This document shows, piece after piece, positions 21,058-46,716 of a stretch of 64,000 nt of DNA; position 1 is the stretch's first letter; each line of letters starts with the position of its first letter. Origin of the DNA: a virus; the IMG/VR virus record IMGVR_UViG_3300021185_003284, positions 1-64,000 of that record; one strand, given 5' to 3'. The notes beneath the pieces were generated by a model. The model was not told the origin of the DNA and did not search any database. It saw nothing but the letters and a program-made list of their open reading frames with translations. The translations under genes were made by a program, and so were the position numbers.

Positions 21058-21402
21058 ATGGATAAAAAGTTATACCCAAAAAACGATCGAATACTGTTAA
21101 TACCTATAGACGAAGGTGAGCAGACATACGGTTCGATTGTAATCCCTGACATGGGGAAGGAAAAGCCTGAAATGGGCAAAGTTATTGCAGTTGGTCCTGG
21201 TAGACTATCTGAATATGGAAAAAACATTCCCGTTAGAACTTGTAGAGAAGGAGATATAGTACTTGTACCTAAAATTGGTACTTTGAGAATTGACTTTGAA
21301 GGTCAAGAGTATTATATTGCTCAAGATAGAGAAGTATTAGCGGTGATTAAAGAAGTAGAATCAGAACCAAAAACTAAAATAGATCCAGAGTACTATGACT
21401 AA
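21058..21402 (+). CDS. groES: GroES-type co-chaperonin
   Basis: A 114-residue Cpn10. KLYPKNDRILLIPIDEGEQTYGSIVIPDMGKEKPEMGKVIAVGPG covers the barrel and the mobile loop, and EGDIVLVPKIGTLRIDFEGQEYYIAQDREVLAVI is the usual C-terminal half. The tail is an acidic/proline extension. The mobile-loop residues differ from the canonical GGIVL, here YGSIVI, which still gives a hydrophobic tripeptide. It overlaps groEL by eight bases. Confidence 0.9.
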   Translation: MDKKLYPKNDRILLIPIDEGEQTYGSIVIPDMGKEKPEMGKVIAVGPGRLSEYGKNIPVRTCREGDIVLVPKIGTLRIDFEGQEYYIAQDREVLAVIKEVESEPKTKIDPEYYD

Positions 21403-23038
21403 AAAGATTACATTTTCAGACGATGCTAGGAATAATCTAGCTGATGGAGTCGATAAACTAGCAAATGCAGTTACGGCAACCTTAGGACCTGCAGGACGAA
21501 ACGTTATTATAGAACAAGATATGGGTAACCCAGTATCTACTAAAGACGGAGTTACTGTAGCAAAATCAATTACATTAAAAAATAAAGTAGAGAACCTAGG
21601 AGCACAAATAGTTAAACAAGCAGCTATTAAAACAGCTGACTTAGCTGGAGATGGAACTACTACTTCAACATTATTAGCCCAATCTATACTTAATGAAGGA
21701 CTGGATAGGCTAAAAGCAGGATCAAATGCCGTAGACGTAAAGAGAGGTATTGAGAAAGCTGTTAAAATAATTGTAGAAGGACTACAAGAAGATTACTCTA
21801 AAGAAATCACGGACGAGGAACAGTTGAAACAGGTAGCCACCATTTCAGCTAATAATGATAAAGAAGTTGGTGAATTAATTTCCACTGCCATGGACAAAGT
21901 TGGTCAGGATGGAGTCGTAACAATTGAAGAATCTAAAACAGGAGAAACATATCTCGAAACAGTCGAAGGTATGCAATTCAATCGCGGTTATAAGTCTCCT
22001 TACTTCGTTACAGACAATAATACCATGTCAGCTGTTCTCTCGAATCCGTTAGTATTATTAATCGACAAAAGAGTTAGTGCTATTAAAGAGTTACTACCTA
22101 TCTTAGAAGGAGCTTCTCAGCAAAACAAATCATTACTAGTAATAGCAGATGATATAGAAGGAGAGGCACTATCTACTATGGTAGTTAATAAGATGAGAGG
22201 TATTTTGCCTGTAGTAGCAGTTAAAGCTCCTGAATTTGGTGATAGAAAAAAAGCAATGTTAGAAGATATAGCAGTGCTTACTGGTGCAACAGTCATATCT
22301 CCAGATAAAGGAATGAGGTTAGAAAAGTTCGATGCTAAATGGTTAGGTTCTTCCGGAAAGGTAACCGTTACAAAAGATACCTGTACTATAATCGATGCAA
22401 AAGGAGAAGAGTCAGTAATTACACAGAGGATTGAAGAAATCAAAACTCAAATAGATGAAAGCAATTCACCTTATGAAAAAGAAAAACTTCAAGATAGGTT
22501 AGCAAAATTTATGGGTGGCGTAGCTCTAGTTCATGTTGGAGGACATACTGAAGTTGAAATGAAAGAGAAAAAAGATAGAGTTGATGATGCTCTACATGCC
22601 ACCAAAGCTGCCTTGGAAGAAGGAATTTTACCTGGAGGAGGAGTAGCTTTACTTAACGCTTCTATGGAATTAGTACATACATTAAGTTCTTTTGATAGTG
22701 ATGATGAAAGATTAGGAGCTGATATAGTTATTAATGCTTGTGAAAGACCATTCTATACTATCTTATTAAATGCAGGTTATACTAATGATCAGATAGGAGA
22801 TATAGAAGAAGATTTAAAAACCAACTATGATAAATGGTCAGGTTATAATCCAAGAAACAAAAACATAGTTAATATGTTTGCAGAAGGAATAATCGATCCA
22901 ACTAAGGTAACGAGACTAGCCTTAGAAAATGCAGCATCAGTAGCAGGTACGTTACTTATTACTGAAGCAGTTGTCTCAAAAGGAAAAGAGAAAAAAGATA
23001 CAGCACCGGGAGTAGATCCTAATATGCTGTTAGGTTAA
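21395..23038 (+). CDS. groEL: GroEL-type chaperonin
   Basis: A complete 547-residue chaperonin. ATLGPAGRNV lies near 30-40, the nucleotide motif GDGTTTSTLLAQ near 86-97, a helical apical domain follows, and LEEGILPGGGVALLNA lies near 408-423. The C-terminus ends GVDPNMLLG instead of the flexible Gly-Gly-Met repeats, so the cavity tail is absent. With groES it could fold phage capsid or tail proteins independently of host GroEL or support modified client preference. Phage chaperonins are known but uncommon. Confidence 0.96.
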   Translation: MTKKITFSDDARNNLADGVDKLANAVTATLGPAGRNVIIEQDMGNPVSTKDGVTVAKSITLKNKVENLGAQIVKQAAIKTADLAGDGTTTSTLLAQSILNEGLDRLKAGSNAVDVKRGIEKAVKIIVEGLQEDYSKEITDEEQLKQVATISANNDKEVGELISTAMDKVGQDGVVTIEESKTGETYLETVEGMQFNRGYKSPYFVTDNNTMSAVLSNPLVLLIDKRVSAIKELLPILEGASQQNKSLLVIADDIEGEALSTMVVNKMRGILPVVAVKAPEFGDRKKAMLEDIAVLTGATVISPDKGMRLEKFDAKWLGSSGKVTVTKDTCTIIDAKGEESVITQRIEEIKTQIDESNSPYEKEKLQDRLAKFMGGVALVHVGGHTEVEMKEKKDRVDDALHATKAALEEGILPGGGVALLNASMELVHTLSSFDSDDERLGADIVINACERPFYTILLNAGYTNDQIGDIEEDLKTNYDKWSGYNPRNKNIVNMFAEGIIDPTKVTRLALENAASVAGTLLITEAVVSKGKEKKDTAPGVDPNMLLG

Positions 23039-30228: not shown

Positions 30229-30265
30229 TTATTCCGGACTACACGAATACGGACAATCAAAGGAG

Positions 30266-30293
30266 TGGGATCATTAGATCCCATTTTTTTTTT
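30266..30293 (+). terminator. strong intrinsic terminator
   Basis: TGGGATC/GATCCCA, a perfect seven-pair stem with loop ATTA at 30266-30283, followed by ten T residues. It separates the preceding genes from the envelope module. Confidence 0.88.
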
Positions 30294-30469: not shown

Positions 30470-30946
30470 ATGAGACTATTATTATTTTTACTTAGTTTCC
30501 TTTTTAGTTTTAGTTTAGTTGCACAAGAACTGAAAATAGGGGACGTAGAGAATAACATCGTTCTAGGTGAGCTAGCTGGTAACAGAGACTTATCATTCGG
30601 AGTAAAGAATGTATTAGAGGAAGTTGTCCAAGACTACGGCTGGTATCTCAATCCTAATTCAAACAACATTTTAGAAGTTGAACTGCTTTATTTTGACGTT
30701 CAGAGAAATAACGTTCAGTTGGCAGCATTCGCTAAAAACATAGACGTATATCAAATAGTAGCTAGAGGTACTTTTACTAGAGAAGGTAAAAAACCTAAAA
30801 AAGCAACAGCAAAGGGAGTTGCTAAAAGCATATCAACAGCTACATTAATCATAGATCAAGGAGGTAACTTCTCCCAAGCTAATGTTTCATCAGCAATTAA
30901 AAAGCTTTGTGAACAGTTAGTTAAAAAGTTAAAAATGGAATTATGA
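30470..30946 (+). CDS. exported hypothetical protein (envelope module)
   Basis: A 158-residue protein with a clear signal peptide (LLLFLLSFLFSFSLVAQ). The mature part resembles the small alpha/beta domain of CsgG/LpoB-like periplasmic proteins, with VELLYFDVQRNNVQ followed by a basic strand and a C-terminal helix SAIKKLCEQLVKKL. This similarity is weak. It ends in an ATGA overlap with a 33-residue frame. It opens the module that includes the CsgG-like channel. Confidence 0.65.
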   Translation: MRLLLFLLSFLFSFSLVAQELKIGDVENNIVLGELAGNRDLSFGVKNVLEEVVQDYGWYLNPNSNNILEVELLYFDVQRNNVQLAAFAKNIDVYQIVARGTFTREGKKPKKATAKGVAKSISTATLIIDQGGNFSQANVSSAIKKLCEQLVKKLKMEL

Positions 30947-31044
30947 ATAAAATAATTAATATAATATTAAAAATCGACAAATGGCTCTCTGATCAGGTAC
31001 ATGATATGTACCCTGGGCTGACTAAACACATGAAAAAAAAATGA
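30943..31044 (+). CDS. 33-residue peptide between envelope genes
   Basis: The frame starts in an ATGA overlap with the previous gene and ends in an ATGA overlap with the next, so its limits match coupling on both sides. It encodes an amphipathic N-terminal helix (NKIINIILKIDKWLSDQ) and a basic end. A hairpin GGTACAT/ATGTACC lies within it (30996-31012). Not similar to anything I recognise. Confidence 0.5.
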   Translation: MNKIINIILKIDKWLSDQVHDMYPGLTKHMKKK

Positions 31045-32726
31045 GACAACTACTTTTAACCCTTTTATTAGTACCTGCTCTAGCTCTAGGTCAATCATCT
31101 TCAGATGGTATAGACATAGACTTAGATTTTAAAGGTACGACCTCAGGTGAAAACGATATTACTAAAATTCAGGTTAATGATACCTTAGTGTTCGCACTAA
31201 ATATTACTGATTTGAACGATAGTAACGACGTTACTTATATTCACACTGATGTAGAATACAATAAGAACGCTTATACGTTACTAGACCCAGTATGGAAAGT
31301 ATCAGGAGCAAATAATAATTTATTCTTCTATGACGATACAAAATGGAATCCTAACACAAATTACGACCTTAGTGACTTATGGGCACAGTGGTCTGGAGGA
31401 GGAGGAAATTATGCCTCTACTACTGGATGGAAAGTAGGACATTGGACAACACAATATACTAGTGCATTTGCTGGAGATTATGTTGAACTACACTTTATAG
31501 CTAAGACTACAGATAATTCTAATTATGCAAAAGCAATAAATGTAACAATGGCTAAAGTAACTGATAACAATACTGGATATACTTATCCAATTGGTAAAGT
31601 TAGAGGACACGATACTCAGTTTATATCTCAAGTACCTTTAGAAGATTTTGATAACAATGTATATATTAAAGTAGAAACTAGTTCAAATGTAGATGCAACT
31701 AAAATTAAAGCAACATTAGGTAAAGGATCAAATAATGAAACTATTACTACTTTAAATTTAGATGCAAATGGAGAAGCTAATGTAACAGATTACTTTAATA
31801 GTTCTTCAGAGACTTATCATATTACTTTCGACTGGGATGGAACAGAACAAGAATGGCAAGATTTAAAAGATGATGCAATTACGATTTCAGATGCTGTTCT
31901 ACTATTAAAAGAAACTGGAGACTTTGAACATGGTAATGCTGGTAATGCTTATGAGCATCCTATTCAGTATATAGCTACAGATTTTGATGCTAACGGAACT
32001 CTTAATAATCAAGATTCATTTGATCTATTAGCACACGTATTAGATGTAGCAGATGTATTTGTTAAGTACATAGAAGATACATTTAGTTCTGGTTTTGCAT
32101 TAGTACCTAGTGCTGTTTACAATGCAATAACAATGAACAATTGGACAGATGAAGACTTACCTGATATGGGAGATGGATCATTTAGTTTAGATTTATCAAA
32201 TGGAGATGTTAATTTAGCTTATAAATCTGCTCTATGGGGGGATGCTAACTTATCTCACGGAACAGTACAAGATAATGCAACAGGATCAGGAGTTACTTAT
32301 TCTATAGCTAACTCTTCACCATTAACTTCTAAATCAATGACTCAATATGCAGTATCAGATTCTACAGTAGAAGCTACATTAGTTACTGAGATAAAAGACA
32401 ATGGTAATGTTCATGTTGAATTTGAAATTTTATCTGATGATACAGCAGCATTACAATTAAAAGTTAATTACGATAGTTCAAGATTACAATTTAAAGAAGT
32501 AATATTTGACACAGGTGATACTACTACTAACTTTGGTAACTCAGATTACTCTACAGTTAATATGGGTAGTATAATCCAAAATGGAGGAGCTATACCAGTC
32601 AATTCAACAATGAAAATTGTATTTGAACCATTAGAAACAATAACATCCGCTGCAGGATTGGTAAGTATAAGAAATACTGATGCAGCAAGCACAGAAGGAT
32701 TACAACAACATTTAAATATACAATAA
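31041..32726 (+). CDS. secreted cohesin/dockerin-like protein
   Basis: A 561-residue protein with signal peptide (LLLTLLLVPALALGQ). Two beta-sandwich regions resembling cohesin-type domains lie at about 25-175 (VNDTLVFALNITDL, YIHTDVEYNKNAYTLLDP) and about 430-555 (LQLKVNYDSSRLQFKEV). Between them a dockerin-like calcium segment TDFDANGTLNNQDSFDLLAH occurs near residue 318. The pattern suggests a secreted, self-associating protein. The next gene starts on its stop codon and encodes a lipoprotein. Adhesion or matrix formation is an inference. Confidence 0.65.
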   Translation: MRQLLLTLLLVPALALGQSSSDGIDIDLDFKGTTSGENDITKIQVNDTLVFALNITDLNDSNDVTYIHTDVEYNKNAYTLLDPVWKVSGANNNLFFYDDTKWNPNTNYDLSDLWAQWSGGGGNYASTTGWKVGHWTTQYTSAFAGDYVELHFIAKTTDNSNYAKAINVTMAKVTDNNTGYTYPIGKVRGHDTQFISQVPLEDFDNNVYIKVETSSNVDATKIKATLGKGSNNETITTLNLDANGEANVTDYFNSSSETYHITFDWDGTEQEWQDLKDDAITISDAVLLLKETGDFEHGNAGNAYEHPIQYIATDFDANGTLNNQDSFDLLAHVLDVADVFVKYIEDTFSSGFALVPSAVYNAITMNNWTDEDLPDMGDGSFSLDLSNGDVNLAYKSALWGDANLSHGTVQDNATGSGVTYSIANSSPLTSKSMTQYAVSDSTVEATLVTEIKDNGNVHVEFEILSDDTAALQLKVNYDSSRLQFKEVIFDTGDTTTNFGNSDYSTVNMGSIIQNGGAIPVNSTMKIVFEPLETITSAAGLVSIRNTDAASTEGLQQHLNIQ

Positions 32727-33088
32727 TGAAGAAACTTACTTACTTACTATTCGCCATACTTGCAGTATCATGTATGAAAGACGAAGAAATGTTTATCGAT
32801 GCTCCCGTTGATTCTCAGTTAGAGATATTAGATATAGAAGGATTAAAATTTCAAAGCAGCGATATAACAGATGGTTCATTATGGAACTTTAAAACATTAA
32901 CAGAGGGAAAATATACTCTAGAAATTAGAAATCATTTTAAAACATTAATATCAAAAAATAAATTCAACGCTGAAATCGGAGATAATGTATCTAAATTTTA
33001 TACTAAAGCGCTCCTAGACGGTGACTATACAATAGTCATATTGAATGGACAGGACGTCATCCATGAGAGGAAATTAACAATTCGTTAA
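32726..33088 (+). CDS. probable surface-exposed lipoprotein
   Basis: A 120-residue lipoprotein with lipobox LAVSC and the sequence MKDEE directly after the Cys. That K-D-E-E pattern fits the lipoprotein export signal described for surface lipoproteins of Bacteroidota. The mature part is beta-rich (GKYTLEIRNHFKTLISKN, DGDYTIVILNGQDVI). It is co-translated with its neighbours. It may anchor the preceding dockerin-like protein; this is inference. Confidence 0.7.
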   Translation: MKKLTYLLFAILAVSCMKDEEMFIDAPVDSQLEILDIEGLKFQSSDITDGSLWNFKTLTEGKYTLEIRNHFKTLISKNKFNAEIGDNVSKFYTKALLDGDYTIVILNGQDVIHERKLTIR

Positions 33089-33634
33089 ATGAGAAAAGCA
33101 ATTATCGCAGTAATAGGTTTCGTAATGGTTGGGTGTGCAAACCCTTCCTTGGAAAGAGGATTTGAATCCTTAAGTGAATCATTAGCAGAGTTAGATGCAG
33201 CTTTTATAGCATTAGACATCGAACAAATGCAAAATGATATAGCATCTGCACAAGACGCAGTAGACCAAATGACATTAGACATGGAAGCTACTGAAGCAAT
33301 GTTGCAGGAAATGGCAGACAATCTAGCATGGGGTGACGATTTCGACACTACTGTTCTAGGTCAACTAACAGCCATGGAGCAGATCGTACTTAACATAACT
33401 GTTAGGCTACAGGAAACTCTCACAGTTGTAGAAAATATGGCAACAACAGAACAAGTTCAAGCTTTATTAGCTCAAGTACAAGATGCAGGAGATAAAGTAA
33501 AGCAACTTGTAGCTATAGCTGACTACGACTATGATGGAGTTATTAACGCATTAGATCAATGCCCAGATACTCCAATAGAAGAAATAAACGAAGTAGATGG
33601 AAACGGATGTAGTCCATCTCAATTATCTAATTAA
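33089..33634 (+). CDS. coiled-coil lipoprotein with thrombospondin type 3 calcium motif
   Basis: A 181-residue lipoprotein: lipobox MVGC, then about 130 residues of helix with heptads (LAELDAAFIALDIEQMQND), then DYDYDGVINALDQCPDTP, a thrombospondin type 3 repeat as found before OmpA domains. No OmpA domain follows; the protein stops soon after VDGNGCSPSQ. It starts on the base after the previous stop. Confidence 0.7.
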   Translation: MRKAIIAVIGFVMVGCANPSLERGFESLSESLAELDAAFIALDIEQMQNDIASAQDAVDQMTLDMEATEAMLQEMADNLAWGDDFDTTVLGQLTAMEQIVLNITVRLQETLTVVENMATTEQVQALLAQVQDAGDKVKQLVAIADYDYDGVINALDQCPDTPIEEINEVDGNGCSPSQLSN

Positions 33635-33635
33635 A

Positions 33636-33935
33636 ATGAGTAAAGAAAAAAAAGAAGGATTCTTTTCAAACGTCAGAAATCAATTAATAGCAGGAGCTGG
33701 AGTAGTGTTAACTACCTTAGGTACTGTATTTACTGATAAGATCGAAGAGTTATTCGGAGTAGAAGATGATACAGCAATTGAAGTCGTTCAAGAACAAAAT
33801 GTAAATGTTGAAGGACCCTCGATTACTATCAATATTCCGGAACAACAAAAAGATACTGTAGTTAAAAAAGTTTACGTTAAACCTAAACCTAAATTAACAG
33901 ATACAGAAAAACGTAAGAAAGAAATCGACTGGTAA
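33636..33935 (+). CDS. small membrane protein
   Basis: A 99-residue protein with one hydrophobic helix (QLIAGAGVVLTTLGTVF) near the N-terminus and a basic, proline-rich C-terminus (YVKPKPKLTDTEKRKKEIDW). ATG 33636 fits better than the upstream start within the preceding gene. Orientation in the membrane is uncertain. Confidence 0.65.
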   Translation: MSKEKKEGFFSNVRNQLIAGAGVVLTTLGTVFTDKIEELFGVEDDTAIEVVQEQNVNVEGPSITINIPEQQKDTVVKKVYVKPKPKLTDTEKRKKEIDW

Positions 33936-34027
33936 GAAACAAAAAAGAAGGGCCTGAATGTCGCAAATCCAGACCCCTCACATAGTTTCGAAAGAACTTG
34001 ATTGGTAACCTTTAAAATTAACTAACT

Positions 34028-34252
34028 ATGAATGTAATTAACTTTTTCGCAAGCCCCTTCATCTTAATGTATGAAGAAATCTTCGAGCAGCCAACTTTAT
34101 TATGGAAAATTTGGCAAACTCTTTTGCTAGTATGGGTATCTAGCTTATTTTTATTGTTTATTGTAGGCTGGTCTAGCTTAGTATTTGAACTAATTACTAA
34201 CCCATCATCATTCGACAACGCAACATTCGGGGTATTCGATACCCTTGGGTAA
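34028..34252 (+). CDS. small membrane protein upstream of the CsgG-like gene
   Basis: A 74-residue protein with a strongly hydrophobic centre (TLLLVWVSSLFLLFIVGWSSL). It overlaps the csgG-like gene by eight bases. A GGGCCTG/CAGACCC hairpin with one mismatch lies in the 92-base gap before it (33953-33976) without a T tract. Confidence 0.6.
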   Translation: MNVINFFASPFILMYEEIFEQPTLLWKIWQTLLLVWVSSLFLLFIVGWSSLVFELITNPSSFDNATFGVFDTLG

Positions 34253-34964
34253 GTATATTAGTGTATTATTCGTAATATTCGGATTTGCACTAGTAAATGG
34301 ACAAGTCGTCGGAAAGACTACGACTGAGAATTATCAAGCGGAATTTGAGAGACAAGCCTCGTTATACTCAATTCCCGAATACTTTGGTGATCCAGTACCA
34401 GTAGCACTTCTAGACGTAGGTTTAACAGATGACATATTGCTACAGTATCCTGAACTAGGAGACTATCGTGTAGGCTTAGGTCTAACAAATATTACTGTAG
34501 CTTTTTTAGATGAAACTTTTAGATTTGAATTTGTAGAAACTAAAGATGAGATAAAGGACCGTATGATTGTACAGTTCAAAGCATCTCAGAAAGGATTTAC
34601 TGCTAATGAAATAGAGATAAGAGGAAAGATAACTCTTGCTCGATATTTTGCTTATGTAGAGATCTATGACTTTTCTATATCTGAAGATGAATCAATCAAT
34701 TTAAAAGACGGAGTGAAAAATACTCTTGTGACCAGACTTGGGCTCCAAGTTAAAATGGTCGATGCTCAAACCGGTCTATATATGACTGGTTCGGGATTAG
34801 GACTCGCTACAACTACTAGAGAGGTGACCATACTTAATGATCAAAATTTATCAGAAGTATCTTTCAATCAATCATCGATTGGGGTATCAACACGTAAAGC
34901 ATTAGAGACAGCAGTTGCTAAGATCGTTAAAAGGATGATAAGAAAGAAAATATTTGATCACTAA
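34245..34964 (+). CDS. CsgG-like curli secretion channel protein
   Basis: A 239-residue exported protein similar to CsgG, the outer-membrane channel for curli subunits. The C-terminal half is most telling: LGLQVKMVDAQTGLYMTGSG, then a strand pair, then SFNQSSIGVSTRKALETAVAKIVKRM. The start is a TTG and the signal peptide ends ALVNGQ without a lipobox Cys, unlike Escherichia coli CsgG. CsgG homologues have been noted in marine phage sequences. The likely passenger is unknown; the low-complexity neighbour or the cohesin-like protein are candidates. Confidence 0.75.
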   Translation: MGKYISVLFVIFGFALVNGQVVGKTTTENYQAEFERQASLYSIPEYFGDPVPVALLDVGLTDDILLQYPELGDYRVGLGLTNITVAFLDETFRFEFVETKDEIKDRMIVQFKASQKGFTANEIEIRGKITLARYFAYVEIYDFSISEDESINLKDGVKNTLVTRLGLQVKMVDAQTGLYMTGSGLGLATTTREVTILNDQNLSEVSFNQSSIGVSTRKALETAVAKIVKRMIRKKIFDH

Positions 34965-34974
34965 TTCAAGTGTT

Positions 34975-36825
34975 ATGAGATGGTTACTATTCATAGTAAT
35001 TGCTGCGATGGGGATGTTCAAGGGTCATTCACAGGCCCTTGTTCAAACCTATACTGACAGATGTACAGGAGAAGTCAAAGTAATGACTGTACAGATGAAC
35101 AGCTCTACTGTGGTGGCTTATTATAATAGATCTAGAGTCTTTACAGCGGCTGAGTTTACTAACGGTACTTTAATAACATGGTTAGAAGAAACTTATTCAT
35201 GGTGGCAAGCATTATCACCTTGTTCAACAAATAATGCTACGTCTAATACAACTCAACAGACGACTCAAAACGCTACAACAAACGCTACTAATGCAGCATC
35301 TAATGCTACTAGTAATGCTACTAGTAATGCAACATCAAGTGCTGCTGGAACAACAGGTACAACTGGGACTACCGGAACAACTAATACAGGTAGTACTAAT
35401 ACAGGTAGTACTAATACAGGTACAACTAATACAAACACATCAAATGGAAATACAGGATCAACAGGATCTTCAAGCTCAGGAAGCTCAGGATCATCAACAG
35501 GAAATGGATCAAGCAGTGGTAGTTCAGGAAGCTCCTCTGGATCAAGCAGTTCAGGAAGCAGCGAAGGAAACTCTAGTGGATCAAGCTCAGGAGGGGATTC
35601 AGGCAGTTCTTCAAATGATAACTCAGGAGGAAGTGATTCCGGCAACAGTGGAGGAGGAGACTCTTCTGGCGATAGCAGCTCAGGAGGGAGTGAAGATTCA
35701 GGTGGGTCTGATAGCTCGGGTGATAACAGTGATTCGTCAGATTCAGATAACTCTTCTGGGGATGGAGATAGCAGCGATGGTGATTCGTCAGGAGGAGAAG
35801 AAAGTGATTCAGGAAGCGAAACAGAAGAAAATTCAGACGATTCAAAAAATGAGGAAAGTAAGGATGAAAAGTCTGACGAAAAGTCTGAAGAAAAATCTGA
35901 AGAAAAAGAAAAAGAAGAAGAAGTAGAAGAAGATAAGAAAGAAGAAAAGGAAGAGGAAAAAGAAGAGGAAAAGAAAGAAGAGGAAGAAGAAGAAAAGAAA
36001 GAAGATAAAGAAGAAGAAGAGGAAGAAGAAAAAAAGGAAGATAGTAAAGAAGAGGAAGAGGAAGAAGAAGAGGAGAAAGAAAAAACTTTAGCTCCTCCAA
36101 TTGTTACAGCTAACTTGGTAACAATGCAAATGATAGATGGAGCACTAACTAATGCTGCATCTTTTGGTTACTCTCAATCTTCATTAACAGGAGAAGATAC
36201 ATATGCAGCTAATGCAATGCTCTGGTCTAATCTTAAACAGTATAGTATTAACTTATCAAAGAGTCATGTATTCTTTAAATACGACAAACCAGTAGATTAT
36301 TATATTGATAATCCTATGACTGGAGGAAAAGATAAGCTAGGTACTCATATGGAGAGAGGATCTATAATGAAAGTACAATCTATATCAGCAGGATATATGA
36401 GAATGTTTTCAACTCATATTGCAACAGCAGGTATTAGTGATGTATATATGGGACAGAAAGATAATAAATGGAAAGGATTTGTAGGTGGATGGGCATTAAC
36501 TGGAATGTCAATATTCCCAGAAGGGAGTAAACCTATTTTAGTAGCAGCAGTTACAGTATTTGGTACTAAACCTTTTAATTTTAAAAAATGGGATAGATTA
36601 ACTGTTTCACCTATGCTTGCTTATTCTATGACTCCTATAACATTTGATATTAACCTAATGTATCCACAAGGTAATTATCATGGTACATGGATAGCAGGTA
36701 GTAACTTTGATTTTAATTTAACTCAAAGATTTAAAGCTAACATAGGAGGAACTTTAATTGGAAATACTGGACCAGGAGTACCACTTTCATGGGCAATCAC
36801 AGTAGGCTCTAGATTCCAATTCTAG
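34975..36825 (+). CDS. low-complexity exported protein with C-terminal outer-membrane beta-barrel
   Basis: A 616-residue protein. A signal peptide (WLLFIVIAAMGMFKGHSQA) precedes a 60-residue domain with Cys pair TDRC and SPCS. About residues 85-160 are Asn/Thr/Gly repeats, 160-285 Ser/Gly/Asp repeats and 285-375 almost only Glu, Lys and Asp. The last 240 residues alternate in beta strands with aromatic girdle residues and end in GSRFQF, a C-terminal Phe as in BAM substrates. Reverse-strand frames over the repeats are shadows. It would display or thread a long disordered acidic linker at the cell surface. ATG 34975 starts the signal peptide directly. Confidence 0.75.
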   Translation: MRWLLFIVIAAMGMFKGHSQALVQTYTDRCTGEVKVMTVQMNSSTVVAYYNRSRVFTAAEFTNGTLITWLEETYSWWQALSPCSTNNATSNTTQQTTQNATTNATNAASNATSNATSNATSSAAGTTGTTGTTGTTNTGSTNTGSTNTGTTNTNTSNGNTGSTGSSSSGSSGSSTGNGSSSGSSGSSSGSSSSGSSEGNSSGSSSGGDSGSSSNDNSGGSDSGNSGGGDSSGDSSSGGSEDSGGSDSSGDNSDSSDSDNSSGDGDSSDGDSSGGEESDSGSETEENSDDSKNEESKDEKSDEKSEEKSEEKEKEEEVEEDKKEEKEEEKEEEKKEEEEEEKKEDKEEEEEEEKKEDSKEEEEEEEEEKEKTLAPPIVTANLVTMQMIDGALTNAASFGYSQSSLTGEDTYAANAMLWSNLKQYSINLSKSHVFFKYDKPVDYYIDNPMTGGKDKLGTHMERGSIMKVQSISAGYMRMFSTHIATAGISDVYMGQKDNKWKGFVGGWALTGMSIFPEGSKPILVAAVTVFGTKPFNFKKWDRLTVSPMLAYSMTPITFDINLMYPQGNYHGTWIAGSNFDFNLTQRFKANIGGTLIGNTGPGVPLSWAITVGSRFQF

Positions 36826-36873: not shown

Positions 36874-37128
36874 ATGAACTATATAAAACGTAAATGGATG
36901 AGCTTTAGAGACATATTTAAAGACGAAAACGATATCAATGAAAAATCAGTAGTTGGTTTCGCAGCTTTCATAATCATGGTAATATTTGCATTTGCAGATT
37001 TAATTACTGGATATGTAGGCAAAGATTTAGTTATCAATGAGTACATATACAACTCATTTGTATGGATTGTATTAGGTGCTTTTGGTATTGCAGAAGCAGG
37101 AAAAGCTTTTGGACAAAGAAATAAATAA
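36874..37128 (+). CDS. holin-like small membrane protein
   Basis: An 84-residue protein with two membrane helices (VVGFAAFIIMVIFAFADLI and YNSFVWIVLGAFGIAEAG), a short polar turn and a basic end. The size, topology and position, three bases ahead of a lysin-like gene, fit a class II holin. The identification rests on context. Confidence 0.68.
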   Translation: MNYIKRKWMSFRDIFKDENDINEKSVVGFAAFIIMVIFAFADLITGYVGKDLVINEYIYNSFVWIVLGAFGIAEAGKAFGQRNK

Positions 37129-37131
37129 ATT

Positions 37132-37611
37132 ATGAAATTAGAAGTATTAAGATTCAGCTCACAGAGCGATTCTACACTCGGGTTATTATTCGATGTAACT
37201 AATGGTAGAAAGTTTTTATGTTTCACTATAGAAGATGAAGCAAGAGAAACTAAAGTAAAAGGAGAAACTAGAATACCTCAAGGTACGTATAAACTTAATT
37301 TACGTAAAGAAGGAGGATATCATAACAGATATGTTAAGAAGTACGGTTCAATGCATAAAGGTATGATTCATGTACAAGATGTACCGAATTTTACTTACAT
37401 ACTATGGCATACCGGTAATACTGACGAACATACAATGGGATGTTTACTATTCGGAGATACATCTCAGCAAAATATTTCTAAATCAGGATTTATAGGAGCT
37501 TCTACTGAAGCTTACAAAAGAGTTTACCCATCTATAGCAGAAGCTATTGAAAGAGATGGAGAAGCAGAAGTAACATATATTGACTTTGACGAAGGAATTA
37601 TCCACGGATAG
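37132..37611 (+). CDS. DUF5675 family protein, predicted endolysin
   Basis: A 159-residue protein matching the DUF5675 pattern: FTIEDEARETKVKGETRIPQG, KYGSMHKGMIHVQDVPNF, then ILWHTGNTDEHTMGCLLFG with His and Cys in the arrangement of an L,D-transpeptidase-like active site. No signal peptide, in line with release by the holin upstream. The spanin-like pair follows. Cell-wall hydrolysis is the inferred activity. Confidence 0.8.
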   Translation: MKLEVLRFSSQSDSTLGLLFDVTNGRKFLCFTIEDEARETKVKGETRIPQGTYKLNLRKEGGYHNRYVKKYGSMHKGMIHVQDVPNFTYILWHTGNTDEHTMGCLLFGDTSQQNISKSGFIGASTEAYKRVYPSIAEAIERDGEAEVTYIDFDEGIIHG

Positions 37612-37640
37612 TTGCTCGTCTGAGAAATATTTATTATATT
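37610..37640 (+). promoter_or_regulatory. class 1 promoter before the spanin-like pair
   Basis: Perfect AGTTG at 37610-37614, 16 bases, TTATTATATT at 37631-37640, and the ATG seven bases later at 37648. It is unusual for a lysis gene to carry this class. Confidence 0.6.
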
Positions 37641-37647
37641 GTATTAT

Positions 37648-38010
37648 ATGAAAGTAAAAGGTTTACAAGGATACCTACTGTTCGCTATATTAGGCGGGTT
37701 CGTAGCTTGGATGATATGGGGTCAACCTAAGATAAGTGTTGACATAGAGTCTTATGAATTAAAGATTCAGCTACTAGAACAGAGAATCGATTCTATAAAT
37801 ACTCAGAATAATGCTTTAAAATTAGAAGCTGATTCATTATATTTAAGAATAACCTCTTACGATCAAGAGATAAAGAAATTAAATTCTAGAATTTATGTTA
37901 TTAAGAAACAAACAGAGCAAAAAATTAATGCTGTTGATAGTATGTTTGATGATGAGCTTCAACAGTTTTTCGCAAACCGCTACAGACAGCATAAAGATTC
38001 AATTAACTAA
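37648..38010 (+). CDS. i-spanin-like (Rz-like) protein
   Basis: A 120-residue protein with one N-terminal membrane helix (GYLLFAILGGFVAWMIWG) and a long periplasmic coiled coil (YELKIQLLEQRIDSINTQNN). This is the topology of an inner-membrane spanin. The 3' end overlaps the next gene by 83 bases in a different frame, as Rz and Rz1 often do. ATG 37648 is chosen over an upstream TTG. Confidence 0.7.
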   Translation: MKVKGLQGYLLFAILGGFVAWMIWGQPKISVDIESYELKIQLLEQRIDSINTQNNALKLEADSLYLRITSYDQEIKKLNSRIYVIKKQTEQKINAVDSMFDDELQQFFANRYRQHKDSIN

Positions 38011-38323
38011 GCCTATAGCTAAGTTAGTTATTAAAGACTTAATTCAGTTTGATGGACTATCAACTGAAATGCTTACTATGCAGTCTATTCTTACTGAGAC
38101 TAATAATAAGCTACTCACTCAGAACCAATTAGTTGTTAATTTAGAGCTACAAAATAACAATTTACAATCAGTTATCTCAGGTCTGAATAAGAAATATGAT
38201 GTTCAAACTAATCTTTCCAAGGATTTGGAAATAGCTTTAAAGAGACAAAAGAGACAATCTACTATTTATAAAATAGGAGCGGGTATCGGTGCAGCAGCTA
38301 CTCTTTTATTGCTAGTACAATGA
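37928..38323 (+). CDS. second spanin-like protein, embedded start
   Basis: A 131-residue protein that begins inside the i-spanin-like gene in the +1 frame. It has a signal peptide-like start (LLIVCLMMSFNSFSQ), a coiled-coil body (LLTQNQLVVNLELQNNNLQ) and a C-terminal hydrophobic helix (AGIGAAATLLLLVQ). No lipobox is present, so it is not a classic o-spanin. It overlaps the next gene by four bases. Confidence 0.65.
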   Translation: MLLIVCLMMSFNSFSQTATDSIKIQLTKPIAKLVIKDLIQFDGLSTEMLTMQSILTETNNKLLTQNQLVVNLELQNNNLQSVISGLNKKYDVQTNLSKDLEIALKRQKRQSTIYKIGAGIGAAATLLLLVQ

Positions 38324-41060: not shown

Positions 41061-41249
41061 ATGATAAAAGACGAAAAGCTTACCTCGGTTAAAATCACAC
41101 AACCTCTTTTTGACGAATTTAAAATGGCTGCCCTCAAAGACAACTTTTCTTTTAAAAAGCTTGCAGATCGGGCAATTTTTCTCTATCTTACTGATAAGGA
41201 GTTTAAGAAGCAAATACACAAAATAAATTCAATCAATATAAAAAGTTAA
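41061..41249 (+). CDS. small ribbon-helix-helix-like protein
   Basis: A 62-residue protein: KLTSVKITQPLFDEFKMAALKDN resembles the strand-helix of ribbon-helix-helix DNA-binding proteins, followed by a second helix KLADRAIFLYLTDKEF. It could regulate the glycosylation genes whose run it opens. Weak family support. Confidence 0.55.
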   Translation: MIKDEKLTSVKITQPLFDEFKMAALKDNFSFKKLADRAIFLYLTDKEFKKQIHKINSINIKS

Positions 41250-42697
41250 TGGAAGAAAAATTAGGTTATATACCAAAGGATAAAAGAAAGAAGATACTAC
41301 TTTTATCTGATGATATCAGAATGCACTCAGGAGTTGCTACTATGTCGAGAGAGATTGTAGTAAAAACTGCTCATCACTTTAATTGGTTTCAATTAGGAGC
41401 AGCTTTAAAGCATCCAGAAGCAGGTAAGACATTTGATCTATCAGAAGATATAAATAAAAGAAGAGGTCTTAAAGATGCGGATATTAAAGTTCAACCTTAC
41501 AATGGATATGGAGATGCATTGAAAATACGTCAGCTACTCTTTACTGAAAAGCCAGATGCTATTTTTATATTTACTGACCCTAGATATTGGATATGGTTAT
41601 TTGAAATAGAAAGAGAGATAAGAAGTAAGATTCCTATTTTTTGGTTAAACATATGGGATGAGTATCCTGCTCCTATGTACAACAAACAGTATTATAATTC
41701 TGTTGATACTCTTATGGGTATATCTAAACAGACAGTTAATATTAATAAACTAGTATTAGGAGAAGAAGCTAAAGATAAGGTTATAGAGTATGTTCCTCAC
41801 GGAATAGATGAAGAGGCATTCTATCCTATTACTAAAGAACATCCATCTTGGGATAACTTTTCTAACTTTAGAAAAGACTTATTCGGAGAAAAAGAGATCG
41901 AGTATGTAGTTTTCTTTAACTCCAGAAATATTCAAAGGAAGCACCCAGGTGATACTATATTAGCTTATAAATACTTCTGTGATAAGATAGGACCTGAAAA
42001 AGCTAAGAAATGTGCTTTAGTAATGAAAGGAGAGATAAGTTCACCTCATGGTACAGATCTAAGAGCAGTAAGAGATGCTATATGTGATACAGAGTATGTT
42101 AATGTATTCTTTAACGAAGAGAGATTAACTCCAGAACAAATGAATATGTTATATAACGTAGCAGATGTTAATGTTTTAATGAGCTCTAATGAAGGATGGG
42201 GATTATCTTTAACTGAATCAATGATGTCAGGTACTATGATTATTCCTAACACTACTGGAGGTATGCAAGACCAATCTAGGTTCGAAGATGAAAATGGGAA
42301 GTGGATAGACTTTGATTCTGATTTTCCTTCTAACCATAGAGGTAAGTATAAAAAATGTGGAGAGTGGTCATTACCAGTCTTTCCTTCTAACTTAGCTCTT
42401 ATGGGGTCTCCTTTAACTCCTTATATATTTGACGATAGATGTAACTCAGAAGACGTAGCAGATAGAATGCTAGAGGCATATGAATTAGGTCAGGATGAAA
42501 GAAATAGAAGAGGCCTTAAAGGACGTGAGTGGGCTATGTCGGATGAAGCTAGTATGACAGCTGAGAAGATGGGCGATAGAATTATCGAAGTTATGGATAA
42601 AGGGTTTGATAGCTTTACTCCTAGAAGTGAATTCGATATTATTAAAGTAGAAAATTATGTTAAACCAAAAGTTACCCATAACTTGTTAGATTATTAA
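41249..42697 (+). CDS. glycosyltransferase, GT4-like (GT-B fold)
   Basis: A 482-residue protein with an N-terminal KKILLLSDDIRMHSGVATMSRE and a C-terminal sugar-nucleotide domain: YVVFFNSRNIQRKHP, NMLYNVADVNVLMSSNEGWGLSLTESMMSG (E-x7-E region) and IIPNTTGGMQD. It begins one base inside the previous stop. It probably builds glycan on virion proteins or the host surface. Donor and acceptor are unknown. Confidence 0.88.
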   Translation: MEEKLGYIPKDKRKKILLLSDDIRMHSGVATMSREIVVKTAHHFNWFQLGAALKHPEAGKTFDLSEDINKRRGLKDADIKVQPYNGYGDALKIRQLLFTEKPDAIFIFTDPRYWIWLFEIEREIRSKIPIFWLNIWDEYPAPMYNKQYYNSVDTLMGISKQTVNINKLVLGEEAKDKVIEYVPHGIDEEAFYPITKEHPSWDNFSNFRKDLFGEKEIEYVVFFNSRNIQRKHPGDTILAYKYFCDKIGPEKAKKCALVMKGEISSPHGTDLRAVRDAICDTEYVNVFFNEERLTPEQMNMLYNVADVNVLMSSNEGWGLSLTESMMSGTMIIPNTTGGMQDQSRFEDENGKWIDFDSDFPSNHRGKYKKCGEWSLPVFPSNLALMGSPLTPYIFDDRCNSEDVADRMLEAYELGQDERNRRGLKGREWAMSDEASMTAEKMGDRIIEVMDKGFDSFTPRSEFDIIKVENYVKPKVTHNLLDY

Positions 42698-42698
42698 T

Positions 42699-43958
42699 AT
42701 GAGTAAACCGTTATTTATTATAAGCGCTCCTGTAGATACCTATTCAGGATATGGAGCAAGATCAAGAGATATAGTTGATGCTATCATTGCAACAGATAGA
42801 TATGATGTAAAAATATTATCTCAACGATGGGGTAATACTAGATTTGGATATTTAGCTGATCATAAACGTCAAGATATGATTAAACTAATACTACCTCATG
42901 TAGTAAAGAAACCAGATTATTGGATGCAGATTACAGTACCTAATGAGTTTACTCCTGCAGGTAAATATAATATAGGTTGTACTGCTGGGATGGAAAATAC
43001 ATTAGTAGCCCCTCAATGGATTGAAGGTGTAAACAGAATGGACGTAGTATGGACATCATCAGAACATTCTAAGTTAGTATTTGAAGCAACTGCATATGAT
43101 ACTGAAGATAAGAAAACTAAAACGAAAGGACAGTTAAAATGTACTACACCTATAGAGGTAATATTTGAAGGAGTAGATACTACAAAGTACCTACCATCTC
43201 CAGGTGATAAGTTAGATTTATCTGATATACAAGAGCAGTTCTGTTATCTACTTGTTGGTCATTGGATGCAAGGAGACTTTGGAGAGGACAGAAAGAATGT
43301 AGGGTATACAATTAAAACTTTCTTAGAAACATTTAAAAATAAACCTAAGCAACCAGCATTAATATTAAAGACTTCTTTAGTTAATACATCTATATTAGAT
43401 AGAGATAGGTTACTACAGAGAATAGATGATATTAGAAAAACTGTAAAAGGTAAGTTACCCAACATTTATTTACTGCATGGAGAGCTTTCTGATGATAATA
43501 TAAACAATTTATATAATCACTCTAAGGTTAAAGTAATGGTAAGCCATACAAAAGGTGAAGGCTTTGGAAGACCTCTCTTAGAGTTTACTACTACAGGTAA
43601 ACCAGTTATAGCTTCCGGATGGTCAGGACAGGTAGACTTTTTAGATAAAGATAAAAGTATATTAATAGGAGGAACATTAGAGAATGTACATCAGTCGGCT
43701 ACGGTTAAAGATATGATACTTAAAGATGCGAAATGGTTTAAACCTAATGATGGAGAAACAGCTAGAGCATATAAAGAAACTTTTAAGCATTATAAGAAAT
43801 ACTTAATACCTGCTAAACAACAAAGAGCTAGAACTAATAAAGAGTTTACTCTAAATCATATGTTTACTTTAGTAGACAATAGACTAAAAGAATTACTTCC
43901 TGAGTTTCCTCAAGAGGTAGAATTGAAATTACCTGAATTAGAATTACCTAAATTATAG
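42699..43958 (+). CDS. glycosyltransferase, GT4-like
   Basis: A 419-residue GT-B enzyme. SAPVDTYSGYGARSRDI is the donor-side start, IYLLHGELSDDNINNLYNHSKVKVMVSHTKGEGFGRPLLEFTTTGKPVIASGWSGQ (quoted for position, about 258-310) is the GT4 catalytic segment with EGFGRPLLE. It follows the previous glycosyltransferase after one base. Confidence 0.88.
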   Translation: MSKPLFIISAPVDTYSGYGARSRDIVDAIIATDRYDVKILSQRWGNTRFGYLADHKRQDMIKLILPHVVKKPDYWMQITVPNEFTPAGKYNIGCTAGMENTLVAPQWIEGVNRMDVVWTSSEHSKLVFEATAYDTEDKKTKTKGQLKCTTPIEVIFEGVDTTKYLPSPGDKLDLSDIQEQFCYLLVGHWMQGDFGEDRKNVGYTIKTFLETFKNKPKQPALILKTSLVNTSILDRDRLLQRIDDIRKTVKGKLPNIYLLHGELSDDNINNLYNHSKVKVMVSHTKGEGFGRPLLEFTTTGKPVIASGWSGQVDFLDKDKSILIGGTLENVHQSATVKDMILKDAKWFKPNDGETARAYKETFKHYKKYLIPAKQQRARTNKEFTLNHMFTLVDNRLKELLPEFPQEVELKLPELELPKL

Positions 43959-43960
43959 TT

Positions 43961-44419
43961 ATGAATATAGAAAAAGATCAATTAGTAGAAGGTCCATTCG
44001 GGAGTAATGCTTGTTATGAGCAAAACTTCGAACAAGATGGACAACAGATAACAACTTGGTTATGTTTCGGAAGTGGGTTTACAACTTCAACTTTAATGAC
44101 AGAAGGATCTAAACCTGTAAAAGATTTAACTGAAACATCTCCTGAATTATATAAAGACTTAATGCATACTGATAAGAACGGTAGAGTTTGGTTCCCTGCT
44201 ACTATTACTCTTCCGGAAAAAGGAATGGTGTTTGTGGACGGTAAAACAACTAAAGACTGGAAATGGTCATCAGTAAATGCGATCAAGTTGACAGAAGAAG
44301 AACTTAGTAGCGGTAAGTTCCCTAAAGGACAAGAGTGGAAGATGGATATGGCAAACGCTAAGTTATATGATCAAAGAGACTTTATGGATGCTTTAGAAAC
44401 TATAGGGTTCTATAATTAG
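43961..44419 (+). CDS. hypothetical protein
   Basis: A 152-residue, mixed alpha/beta protein with several Trp residues (TTWLCFGSGFTTSTLM, DWKWSSVNAI). The size and placement among glycosyltransferase genes are its only clues. No family is recognised. Confidence 0.65.
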   Translation: MNIEKDQLVEGPFGSNACYEQNFEQDGQQITTWLCFGSGFTTSTLMTEGSKPVKDLTETSPELYKDLMHTDKNGRVWFPATITLPEKGMVFVDGKTTKDWKWSSVNAIKLTEEELSSGKFPKGQEWKMDMANAKLYDQRDFMDALETIGFYN

Positions 44420-44422
44420 AAT

Positions 44423-45034
44423 ATGAAAATAAGTTATGCTATTACAGTTTGTAATGAGGTTAAAGAGATTAAGAAACTCATTTCTATTCTTCTTGAAAGT
44501 AAAAGAGAAGATGATGAAGTAGTAGTACTCTTTGATAAACAGAACGGTACGGCTGAGGTCTGGTCTTATTTACAAGACCAAGATGTAATATGTGAAGCTA
44601 AGTCTTTTAAGAATCATTTTGCAGACTGGAAGAACTACTTAACAGGTATGTGCTCAGGAGATTATATCTTTCAAATAGATGCAGATGAATTTCCTCACAA
44701 GTCACTCTTAACTGCTCTTCCAGTCATCTTAGGATCAAATCCTGATAACGAAGTATATTTAGTTCCTAGAGTTAATACTGTAAATGGTTTAACAGAAGAG
44801 CATAGAGCTAAATGGAATTGGAGAGTAGATGAGAACGGATGGGTAAACTATCCAGACTATCAATGGAGATTATGGAAGAATAAATCAGAGATTAAATGGG
44901 TAAATAAAGTACATGAAGTATTAGAAGGTTTTAAAACTTATGCTCCATTACCTCCTAAAGAAGAATTATCTTTATATCATCCAAAAGAGATAAAAAGACA
45001 AGAGAAACAAAATGCTTATTACGACACACTATGA
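44423..45034 (+). CDS. glycosyltransferase family 2-like
   Basis: A 203-residue GT-A protein. ISYAITVCNEVKEIKKLI is the first strand-helix, YIFQIDADEFP carries the DxD motif and the C-terminal part is rich in Trp (WNWRVDENGWVNYPDYQWRLW) as in WaaE/KdtX-like enzymes. It overlaps cysC by four bases. Confidence 0.85.
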   Translation: MKISYAITVCNEVKEIKKLISILLESKREDDEVVVLFDKQNGTAEVWSYLQDQDVICEAKSFKNHFADWKNYLTGMCSGDYIFQIDADEFPHKSLLTALPVILGSNPDNEVYLVPRVNTVNGLTEEHRAKWNWRVDENGWVNYPDYQWRLWKNKSEIKWVNKVHEVLEGFKTYAPLPPKEELSLYHPKEIKRQEKQNAYYDTL

Positions 45035-45459
45035 TATATTGGTTTACAGGACAGCCTTGTGCAGGTAAGACAACATTAGCAGATTTATTAAAGAAAGAAA
45101 AGCCTGGTGCTTTTAGAATCGATGGTGACGATATGAGAGAGTTATTTTCTAATAAAGATTATTCTGCTAAAGGTAGAATAGATAATGTAGGAACAGCTCA
45201 ACGTATTGCTCACTACCTACACAATCAAGGTAGAGATGTAATTGTATCATTAGTATCTCCTTATGTTGATCAAAGAGAAGAATTTAAAACTCTCTTAGGT
45301 GATAATATAAAAGAGATATATGTACATACAACAGAACCAAGAGAAAGAGATCATTTTAAAGCTATAGCTTATACTCCACCTCTTGAGAACTATATAGATA
45401 TTGACACAACAAAAGATTCAATCAATGAATCATTCGAAAAAATATTAAATGAAATATAG
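45031..45459 (+). CDS. cysC: adenylylsulfate (APS) kinase
   Basis: CysC phosphorylates APS to PAPS, the donor for sulfotransferases. The 142-residue protein has the P-loop GQPCAGKTT at about residues 7-15, RIDGDDMRELF, then a conserved-type RDVIVSLVSPYVDQRE and the YEPP-like AYTPPLENY. It is shorter than the usual 180-200 residues. It is followed by a nucleotidyltransferase and DUF2061, and a PAPS-type sulfotransferase lies at 63.1 kb. Confidence 0.9.
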   Translation: MIYWFTGQPCAGKTTLADLLKKEKPGAFRIDGDDMRELFSNKDYSAKGRIDNVGTAQRIAHYLHNQGRDVIVSLVSPYVDQREEFKTLLGDNIKEIYVHTTEPRERDHFKAIAYTPPLENYIDIDTTKDSINESFEKILNEI

Positions 45460-45799
45460 TTTATTTATAGGTAGATGGCAACCATGGCATTCAGGCCACA
45501 GATGGTTAATAGATCAAAGATTAAAAGAAGGTAAAAAAGTTTGGATAGCAATTAGAGATGTAGAACCAAACGAAAAACAACCTTGGACTCCTCAAGAAGT
45601 TTTAATGAATCTCTCTAATGAATTAGCAGATCTTTTAGAAGAGGGCAGTATAAAAATTACAATAGTACCTGATATAGAATCTATCAATTACGGTAGAGGT
45701 GTAGGGTATGAAATTATAGAACATGTACCTCCTCAGAATGTTGAAGAAATATCAGCTACAAAGATTAGAGAACAAATGAGGAAAGATGGCAAGTTATAA
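45449..45799 (+). CDS. cytidylyltransferase-fold nucleotidyltransferase
   Basis: A 116-residue protein with GRWQPWHSGHRWLI, the H-x-G-H nucleotidyltransferase motif, and ISATKIREQM near the end, the I-S-x-T-x-x-R motif seen in NMN adenylyltransferases. Candidate activities are NMN adenylylation or transfer of a nucleotidyl group to a sugar or phosphate. It overlaps cysC by 11 bases and DUF2061 by 14. Confidence 0.82.
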   Translation: MKYSLFIGRWQPWHSGHRWLIDQRLKEGKKVWIAIRDVEPNEKQPWTPQEVLMNLSNELADLLEEGSIKITIVPDIESINYGRGVGYEIIEHVPPQNVEEISATKIREQMRKDGKL

Positions 45800-45983
45800 A
45801 AGTACTTTAATAAAGACTCTCATATGGAGAGTAATAGCAACTAGTATAACTTTTCTAGTCGGCTGGGTAGTTTCAGGTAATTGGAGATTTGGTTTAGTTA
45901 TAGGAAGTATAGATACAGTTTTAAAGACTATAGGTTACTTTAGTTTTGAAAGACTCTGGATTAAATATAAAGGTAATGATTAA
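45786..45983 (+). CDS. DUF2061 membrane protein
   Basis: A 65-residue two-helix membrane protein: KTLIWRVIATSITFLVGWVVSG and FGLVIGSIDTVLKTIGYF then FERLWIKY. This is the DUF2061 pattern, often found beside sulfate-activation genes in bacteria. It overlaps the genes on both sides. Exact function unknown. Confidence 0.85.
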   Translation: MASYKSTLIKTLIWRVIATSITFLVGWVVSGNWRFGLVIGSIDTVLKTIGYFSFERLWIKYKGND

Positions 45984-46134
45984 AATAAATGTTAAGGTCG
46001 GCGATACTATTATGGTAGGTCGATTTAAGAATAAGAGAGTAAAAGTTAAGAGTATAGAATATGATGAATTTGGTATGCCAATGATAAATGGTAAACCCGG
46101 ATGTAATTTTAGGTTAGTACCTAACCCAAGATAA
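45976..46134 (+). CDS. small conserved-looking phage protein
   Basis: A 52-residue beta-rich protein beginning MIKINVKVGDTIMVGRFKNK and ending NGKPGCNFRLVPNPR. The KVGDTI...GRFKNK...VKSIEYDEFGMP pattern gives an SH3-like barrel impression. ATG 45976 overlaps the DUF2061 stop by eight bases. Function unknown. Confidence 0.6.
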   Translation: MIKINVKVGDTIMVGRFKNKRVKVKSIEYDEFGMPMINGKPGCNFRLVPNPR

Positions 46135-46140
46135 ATTACA

Positions 46141-46152
46141 ACCTATTTATAT
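46141..46152 (+). promoter_or_regulatory. CTATTTATA late promoter candidate
   Basis: ACCTATTTATAT lies two bases before the ATG at 46155, just after the upstream stop, implying a minimal leader. Confidence 0.38.
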
Positions 46153-46154
46153 AC

Positions 46155-46697
46155 ATGGCAATGATACAAACTTTAGAGACAAACCAGCAATACGTAGGAA
46201 AAACAGTCGTATTAGGTTGCATTAACTATTCGATTACAGATTTACTACTCACTAACATGAATAGCGGTAATCTTGTAAAGAGAGATGTAGACTTTTACCT
46301 TCCTGTCAATACTCAAGGTTGGCAAAAATGGTACGATAGTCATATATCGTTACAAAATGATACTGGAGTAAAATCATCATTCATTAAAAAGAAAGACATA
46401 TACAGTATTGACTATAGTGATACAGGAAATATAGGAATAGCTATAGTAGAAGCACCAGATGTTGATTATGCTATTAAACTTATTAATAAAATAACTCCCA
46501 GCATTAAAGAATCTGGATTAATAATTGTTCCCTATAAACCTCTACACAGAATTCAATTTGTATCAAAAATAAATTCTGAATTTGATGCACAATATCTTGT
46601 CCATCTGGAAAATTATTCTTATATTAATTTTATCAAAGGTAAGGTACCTTTAAATAAGAATAAAAAGATTAGCAGGAGTAGATCGATACTCACTTAA
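46155..46697 (+). CDS. hypothetical protein in the sugar locus
   Basis: A 180-residue alpha/beta protein (KTVVLGCINYSITDLLLTN, NIGIAIVEAPDVDYAIKLI, SGLIIVPYKPLHRIQF) that may have a Rossmann-like core, with a basic tail KNKKISRSRS. No family is recognised. It precedes the nucleotide-sugar dehydrogenase gene. Confidence 0.6.
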   Translation: MAMIQTLETNQQYVGKTVVLGCINYSITDLLLTNMNSGNLVKRDVDFYLPVNTQGWQKWYDSHISLQNDTGVKSSFIKKKDIYSIDYSDTGNIGIAIVEAPDVDYAIKLINKITPSIKESGLIIVPYKPLHRIQFVSKINSEFDAQYLVHLENYSYINFIKGKVPLNKNKKISRSRSILT

Positions 46698-46716
46698 ATT
46701 TACAGGTTAAAAAGTT

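Follow-up and report, generated by a model that had tools for sequence, protein, structure and literature searches.

Curli (type VIII) genes have been described in pelagiphages and in the OM43 phage Melnitz, and sibling capture, superinfection defence, uptake and lysis timing have been proposed as roles of phage CsgG (PMC7029224, PMC9599517, PMC9004378). Phage-encoded cargo of the type IX secretion system (T9SS) has been reported, as a unique case, in Cryophage (PMC7468147). Here we analysed a block of nine genes, A to I (positions 30470–36825), in a 64 kb stretch (the window) of the 113 kb linear virus record IMGVR_UViG_3300021185_003284. An original prediction, made from the letters of this DNA, took the block for an undescribed phage module of exported and membrane proteins with a CsgG-like channel. 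From its gene content, folds, sorting signals, conservation and the joint variation of two of its genes, all determined computationally, we lean, with guarded confidence, towards an envelope module, encoded by the phage, through which adhesin-like proteins are displayed on the outside of infected flavobacterial cells.

All nine open reading frames (ORFs) are present on the + strand, and most overlap or are separated by a few bases; relative to the original prediction one start is corrected, F beginning at 33636. The genes are as follows.

30470–30946, + strand: A, protein with a signal peptide, probably located in the periplasm; a short relative of H within the CsgG superfamily
30943–31044, + strand: B, 33-residue peptide with narrow conservation (5 loci)
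31041–32726, + strand: C, signal-peptide protein and surface-protein candidate, with a cohesin-type C-terminus deduced from clade homology; putative cargo
32726–33088, + strand: D, lipoprotein whose surface-export signal reads C-M-K-D-E-E and whose fold resembles a T9SS tail; it probably anchors C or acts as its partner
33089–33634, + strand: E, lipoprotein lacking a surface-export signal, with a coiled coil and a calcium-loop-like end; accessory
33636–33935, + strand: F, single-span membrane protein with a tail of ~70 residues and an invariant final tryptophan; possible inner-membrane tether
34028–34252, + strand: G, small membrane protein, holin-like by size, variable (21 loci)
34245–34964, + strand: H, CsgG-superfamily protein; proposed outer-membrane ring
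34954–36825, + strand: I, N-terminal domain with two cysteines, then a long acidic linker of low complexity and a C-terminal 12-stranded outer-membrane barrel; the true ATG is probably at 34975

The block shares with the pelagiphage and Melnitz genes a phage protein of CsgG fold within a conserved cluster of exported proteins, for which the same candidate roles are discussed. Those phages, however, infect Proteobacteria and encode CsgF and, in part, CsgA/B, whereas no CsgA, CsgB, CsgE or CsgF was matched among the proteins of the present module, which has cohesin/lectin proteins that bear T9SS tails or come with a surface lipoprotein, along with the paralogue A, the 12-strand barrel and F. With Cryophage it has in common genes for proteins with T9SS type A sorting domains, among them a PA14 protein; these genes differ strongly between variants, and superinfection exclusion was suggested for them as well (PMC7468147). 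The Cryophage cargo genes were reported as isolated and variable, with no CsgG-like or barrel frame described, whereas the cargo of the present module comes with a constant frame in 46 of 46 loci. The closest cultured counterpart is Flavobacterium phage vB_FspM_immuto, whose gp13–gp19, mostly annotated as hypothetical, contain all five core families (H is 46% identical), but in an order of their own, with three C genes bearing a C-type lectin and a T9SS tail, and with neither D and E nor an adjoining endolysin. Bacterial CsgG/HfaB proteins (PF03783) share with H the fold and full-length profile similarity; H differs in falling below Pfam detection, in the window's copy lacking a lipobox, and in its surrounding genes. 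Phage CsgG and phage T9SS cargo are each already known. In line with the prediction of an undescribed system, we found no description of this module in the literature, a search that covered open-licence papers and hence gives weak evidence of absence.

The conserved core and its CsgG-superfamily proteins

IMG/VR was scanned twice, with H (44 loci) and with its immuto homologue (80 loci) as queries. The ORFs of all loci were clustered into families, five of which (A, C, F, H and I) were present in almost all loci, and removal of near-identical and short-flank loci left 46 non-redundant loci. The five families co-occurred in all of these (43 directly, 3 via profile search), whereas every other neighbouring family was present in at most 21; the grouping is therefore far beyond chance, and the nine-gene block that had been predicted proves to hold a core of five families. 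Gene order is A-C-D-F-H-I in the window's clade, C-C-C-F-H-I-A in immuto and C-F-H-I-A-C in others, so the core set stays together through rearrangement. Among annotated phages, tblastn found H in immuto and otherwise gave one weak chance match. E, with a weak TSP_3 match, occurs in 7 loci only. The claim that the block encodes only exported or membrane proteins holds for the signal-peptide proteins, the two lipoproteins, the membrane proteins and the barrel, but not for B, which bears no sign of export.

The original prediction had proposed to check the CsgG-like channel by structure prediction of 34245–34964. An AlphaFold model of H (monomer, 31 sequences; predicted local distance difference test, pLDDT, 63.5) does resemble CsgG: its first 19 matches in the PDB were all CsgG chains (best E-value 1.7e-8, probability 1.00), followed by relatives of GNA1162, PelC and LptE, and its top match among predicted viral proteins was a CsgG of an uncultured phage. 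The template modelling (TM) score was only ~0.3–0.46, and our claim for H is therefore one of superfamily membership and not of pore geometry. Profile comparison agrees with the fold. A profile of H together with a homologue from Cloacimonadota matched Bacteroidota CsgG with a probability of 94.7% (50% when the Cloacimonadota homologue was omitted), while 60 column-shuffled controls reached at most 7.2%. This match was obtained with the larger CsgG set; when the comparison used only a few Bacteroidota CsgG proteins that carry a barrel fused at the C-terminus, their profile did not match H. The Pfam CsgG model PF03783 matched neither any of 27 H-family members nor anything in the whole record, a Pfam scan of H relatives returned chance matches only, and the H profile, run against the PDB with HMMER, returned nothing meaningful. 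The window's H has a signal peptide but no lipobox, and so lacks the lipid-anchor cysteine of CsgG; a lipobox-like motif is present in 34 of 126 relatives. When the A and H families were compared by hhalign, the probability was 97% (shuffled controls at most 6.3%). By these profiles A is homologous to H and is a short relative of it.

We also noted, at loci L139 and L144, CsgG proteins of Bacteroidota in which a barrel-like domain is fused to the C-terminus, an echo of the H–I gene pair.

A true curli-type (type VIII) system, in which H would export amyloid subunits that coat the cell, is compatible with the CsgG fold of H and with the CsgA/B, F and G carried by pelagiphages. However, a Pfam scan of the module proteins matched no curlin repeat, CsgE or CsgF, and CsgF (PF10614) was not found in the whole record. 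The conserved partners of H are cohesin/lectin proteins and not amyloid repeats, and the missing lipid-anchor cysteine points the same way. The export of amyloid subunits suggested for the block is not borne out, and we hold such a system to be the least probable of the explanations weighed here.

A cellular origin was considered and rejected. Across 296 Bacteroidota genomes there was a single H match, which lay on a phage-like contig, and the genome scan gave three loci, one of them clearly cellular. On this Cloacimonadota contig (L129:2451-10818) a lipobox-bearing H homologue stands after two large T9SS-tailed proteins (E-values 6e-12 and 2e-12) and before a protein with a charged linker and a probable barrel, with no lysis genes in view. 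The proximity of this homologue to T9SS-tailed proteins suggests a partnership of H-type proteins with T9SS-exported surface proteins beyond phages as well. The linker-barrel protein was considered as a homologue of I and rejected, as the architecture is alike but the profiles fail to match (32% and 10%). Weaker Cloacimonadota matches to H proved to be an ordinary triad of CsgG-type lipoproteins.

The C-terminal part of I was modelled with high confidence as a 12-stranded barrel (pLDDT 91.7). I had been described as a low-complexity barrel protein: the barrel stands, whereas the low-complexity stretch is the linker between it and an N-terminal domain with two conserved cysteines. F has one membrane span, and its C-terminal residue is tryptophan in 111 of 111 members. 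The structures nearest to the I barrel are the oligosaccharide porins KdgM and NanC (moderate scores), and import has been suggested for pelagiphage CsgG; both would suit a nutrient-uptake pore made during infection. But barrel similarity is weak evidence, the core contains neither a degrading enzyme nor an inner-membrane transporter, and C varies like a recognition protein; we regard uptake as improbable.

Two further barrel-like proteins were seen. On a contig of a Flavobacterium metagenome-assembled genome, a 139-residue barrel-like protein occupies the expected place of I and is followed by a GH19 endolysin (L127:9667-10086). Another (L044:10607-11137) combines an N-terminal membrane anchor, a long charged rod and a barrel-like end, and is perhaps a spanin-like bridge between the membranes.

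The variable, putative surface proteins C and D

Outside the window's clade we examined 42 diverse C proteins: 16 matched a T9SS tail (best E-value 1.7e-11), 15 Lectin_C, 14 Cohesin (best 1.4e-12), 4 LamG and 1 PA14; a C protein of immuto matched TIGR04183 (E-value 9.3e-12). C proteins of the window's clade lack the tail, and the window's own C gave no match to the T9SS type A sorting tail. In this clade 9 of 17 C members match Cohesin (PF00963, up to 3.5e-5), which agrees with the cohesin/dockerin-type secreted proteins that had been predicted, though the window's C itself is not among the nine.

The D protein may supply what C of this clade lacks. The window's D has a weak match to TIGR04183 (E-value 0.005), and the D profile matched phage T9SS tails with a probability of 94% (hhalign). 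Its lipobox cysteine is followed by M-K-D-E-E, and C-x-[KRQ]-D-[DE] is frequent in the D family; the surface lipoprotein export signal (LES) has been defined for Capnocytophaga as C-X-K-(D/E)2-X (PMC5080379). D thus carries both marks, a lipobox and an export signal, of a surface-exposed lipoprotein of Bacteroidota, and is predicted to be one.

We compared the variation of C and D with that of A and H over 24 representatives. Pairwise identities of C and D were strongly correlated (0.86; partial correlation given H 0.84; equalled in 0 of 2000 permutations), while those of C correlated with A at 0.02 and with H at 0.33. For example, the window's C is only 26–27% identical to C of loci L003 and L005, though H is 89–92% identical, and 64% identical to C of L006, though H is 84% identical. 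The pattern is best explained by joint exchange of C and D as a putative specificity cassette, independent of the constant frame.

Virions often carry lectin and Ig-like domains, and on that account the products could belong to the virion, for instance as decorations with affinity for glycans or mucus. The signal peptides, lipoboxes, T9SS tails and outer-membrane barrel argue against this, as do baseplate-like genes (by eye) near 80–90 kb of the record and the position of the immuto module after replication genes; we find a virion role even less credible than one in uptake.

Proposed surface display and the neighbouring lysis genes

The T9SS sorting tails, the lipoprotein surface-export signal and the lectin, LamG and PA14 domains support the predicted host envelope or surface module, and a mechanism of display can be proposed from them. 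C would be the cargo: a secreted protein of cohesin type, accompanied in relatives by C-type lectin, LamG or PA14 proteins. The sorting tail at its C-terminus would, in many relatives, direct C through the host T9SS. The window's clade would use a separate protein instead, the surface lipoprotein D, whose tail-like fold would stand in for the missing tail and which probably anchors C. The constant frame would consist of A, F, H and I: H is proposed as a CsgG-like ring in the outer membrane, A as its shorter periplasmic relative, I as an outer-membrane barrel, and F as a tether in the inner membrane that may dock on the ring by its invariant final tryptophan. These proteins would form a complex with pore activity, and the most likely result would be a modified host surface that shuts out other phages or holds on to nearby cells before the infected cell lyses.

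The original prediction overlooked that the module usually has endolysin and holin genes as neighbours. In the window the block is followed by these genes:

36874–37128, + strand: J, small membrane protein, holin-like; frequent neighbour outside the core (52 loci)
37132–37611, + strand: K, DUF5675 protein (PF18925, E-value 9.7e-26), in the position of the endolysin of other loci
37639–38323, + strand: L/M, overlapping gene pair, Rz/Rz1 spanin-like; L has a weak Rz-like PHROG match (0.0017)

An endolysin-type gene lies within 3.5 kb of the module or inside it in 32 of the 46 loci, and inspection and Pfam added four more (L022, PG-binding plus Amidase_2; L012, M15; L025 and L026, M15-type), giving 36 of 46. 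The families are GH19, Amidase_2, PG-binding plus Amidase_2, M15, DUF5675 and phrog_3000, the last two scored as lytic from position and weak similarity only. They are mutually unrelated, so what is conserved is the position and not the common descent of an enzyme. A holin adjoins the module in some loci. In the immuto group no lytic gene adjoins it, and the module sits after replication genes.

The link to lysis genes may reflect late co-expression or a direct role in lysis, and the adjacency thus opens a second reading: the module would belong to the lysis apparatus, its H, A, I and F proteins forming an outer-membrane complex that acts alongside the neighbouring endolysin, holin and spanin genes to breach the envelope or set the moment of lysis. 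The recurrence of unrelated lytic families at the module favours it, and the CsgG/CsgF pore of phage Melnitz has been proposed in such a role. However, this reading accounts neither for the immuto group nor for the T9SS tails and lectin domains of the core C proteins, the bacterial H homologue adjoins T9SS cargo, and the window already has Rz/Rz1-like genes; the presence of this spanin-like pair we count in favour of display. We consider a lysis apparatus, the chief rival of display, possible but doubtful. A trans-envelope sensor or gate would unite elements of both: outer lectin/cohesin proteins, a CsgG-like ring, a barrel and an inner-membrane tether would sense whatever binds the infected cell, such as another phage, and tune when the neighbouring endolysin and holin bring about lysis, as a Bacteroidota counterpart of lysis inhibition. 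This we think unlikely, though less so than uptake.

Several points weigh against surface display. Model confidence for H is only moderate, and the window's own C matched no Pfam domain. The need for H and I is unexplained if C travels by the T9SS. The LES of F. johnsoniae is SDDFE and not of the K-D-E type (PMC5080379), so the signal of D matches a related variant. The surface location of the module proteins is read from sequence signals, and display alone would not predict lytic genes beside the module in 36 of 46 loci.

If the display reading is true, a widespread group of Bacteroidota phages gives infected cells phage-coded surface adhesins, using host export routes (the T9SS or surface lipoprotein export) together with a dedicated CsgG-like frame. 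Phages would then exploit type IX secretion routinely. The unexplained phage CsgG genes could be assigned a function open to testing, with immuto on Flavobacterium sp. LMO8 as a model that can be cultured. Such a module would also be relevant to superinfection exclusion and to the aggregation of aquatic bacteria.

Boundaries of the block and further genes

The block begins just 3′ of a strong hairpin (−16.8 kcal/mol, z-score −4.4; 0 of 200 shuffles equally stable):

30259–30293, + strand: terminator-like hairpin with a T-run, predicted from the sequence, that parts the block from the upstream gene

The flavobacterial promoter pattern was not enriched, and its single match falls within C. A comparison of the module proteins with PHROGs gave no informative match.

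Two further families frequently accompany the module. A secreted DNA/RNA non-specific endonuclease (cluster 15, 28 loci; for example L125:3270-3857, PF01223, E-value 6.5e-21) is often near or inside it; as a periplasmic nuclease it could cut superinfecting DNA. A small secreted protein with an HExxH motif and no Pfam match (cluster 9, 44 loci; L108:12506-12937) often adjoins it.

Elsewhere in the window, several genes were recognized by eye. Look-alikes of QueC, QueD, QueE and GTP cyclohydrolase FolE (159–980, 7883–9116 and 9948–10661) would make up a preQ0 pathway, perhaps for 7-deazaguanine DNA modification, and GroES-like and GroEL-like phage genes adjoin each other at 21058–23038. A long run of glycosyltransferase- and nucleotide-sugar-type genes (41249–51515) is possibly a second surface-modifying block, and a large protein at 59647–61881 has apparent Hint/intein-type segments.

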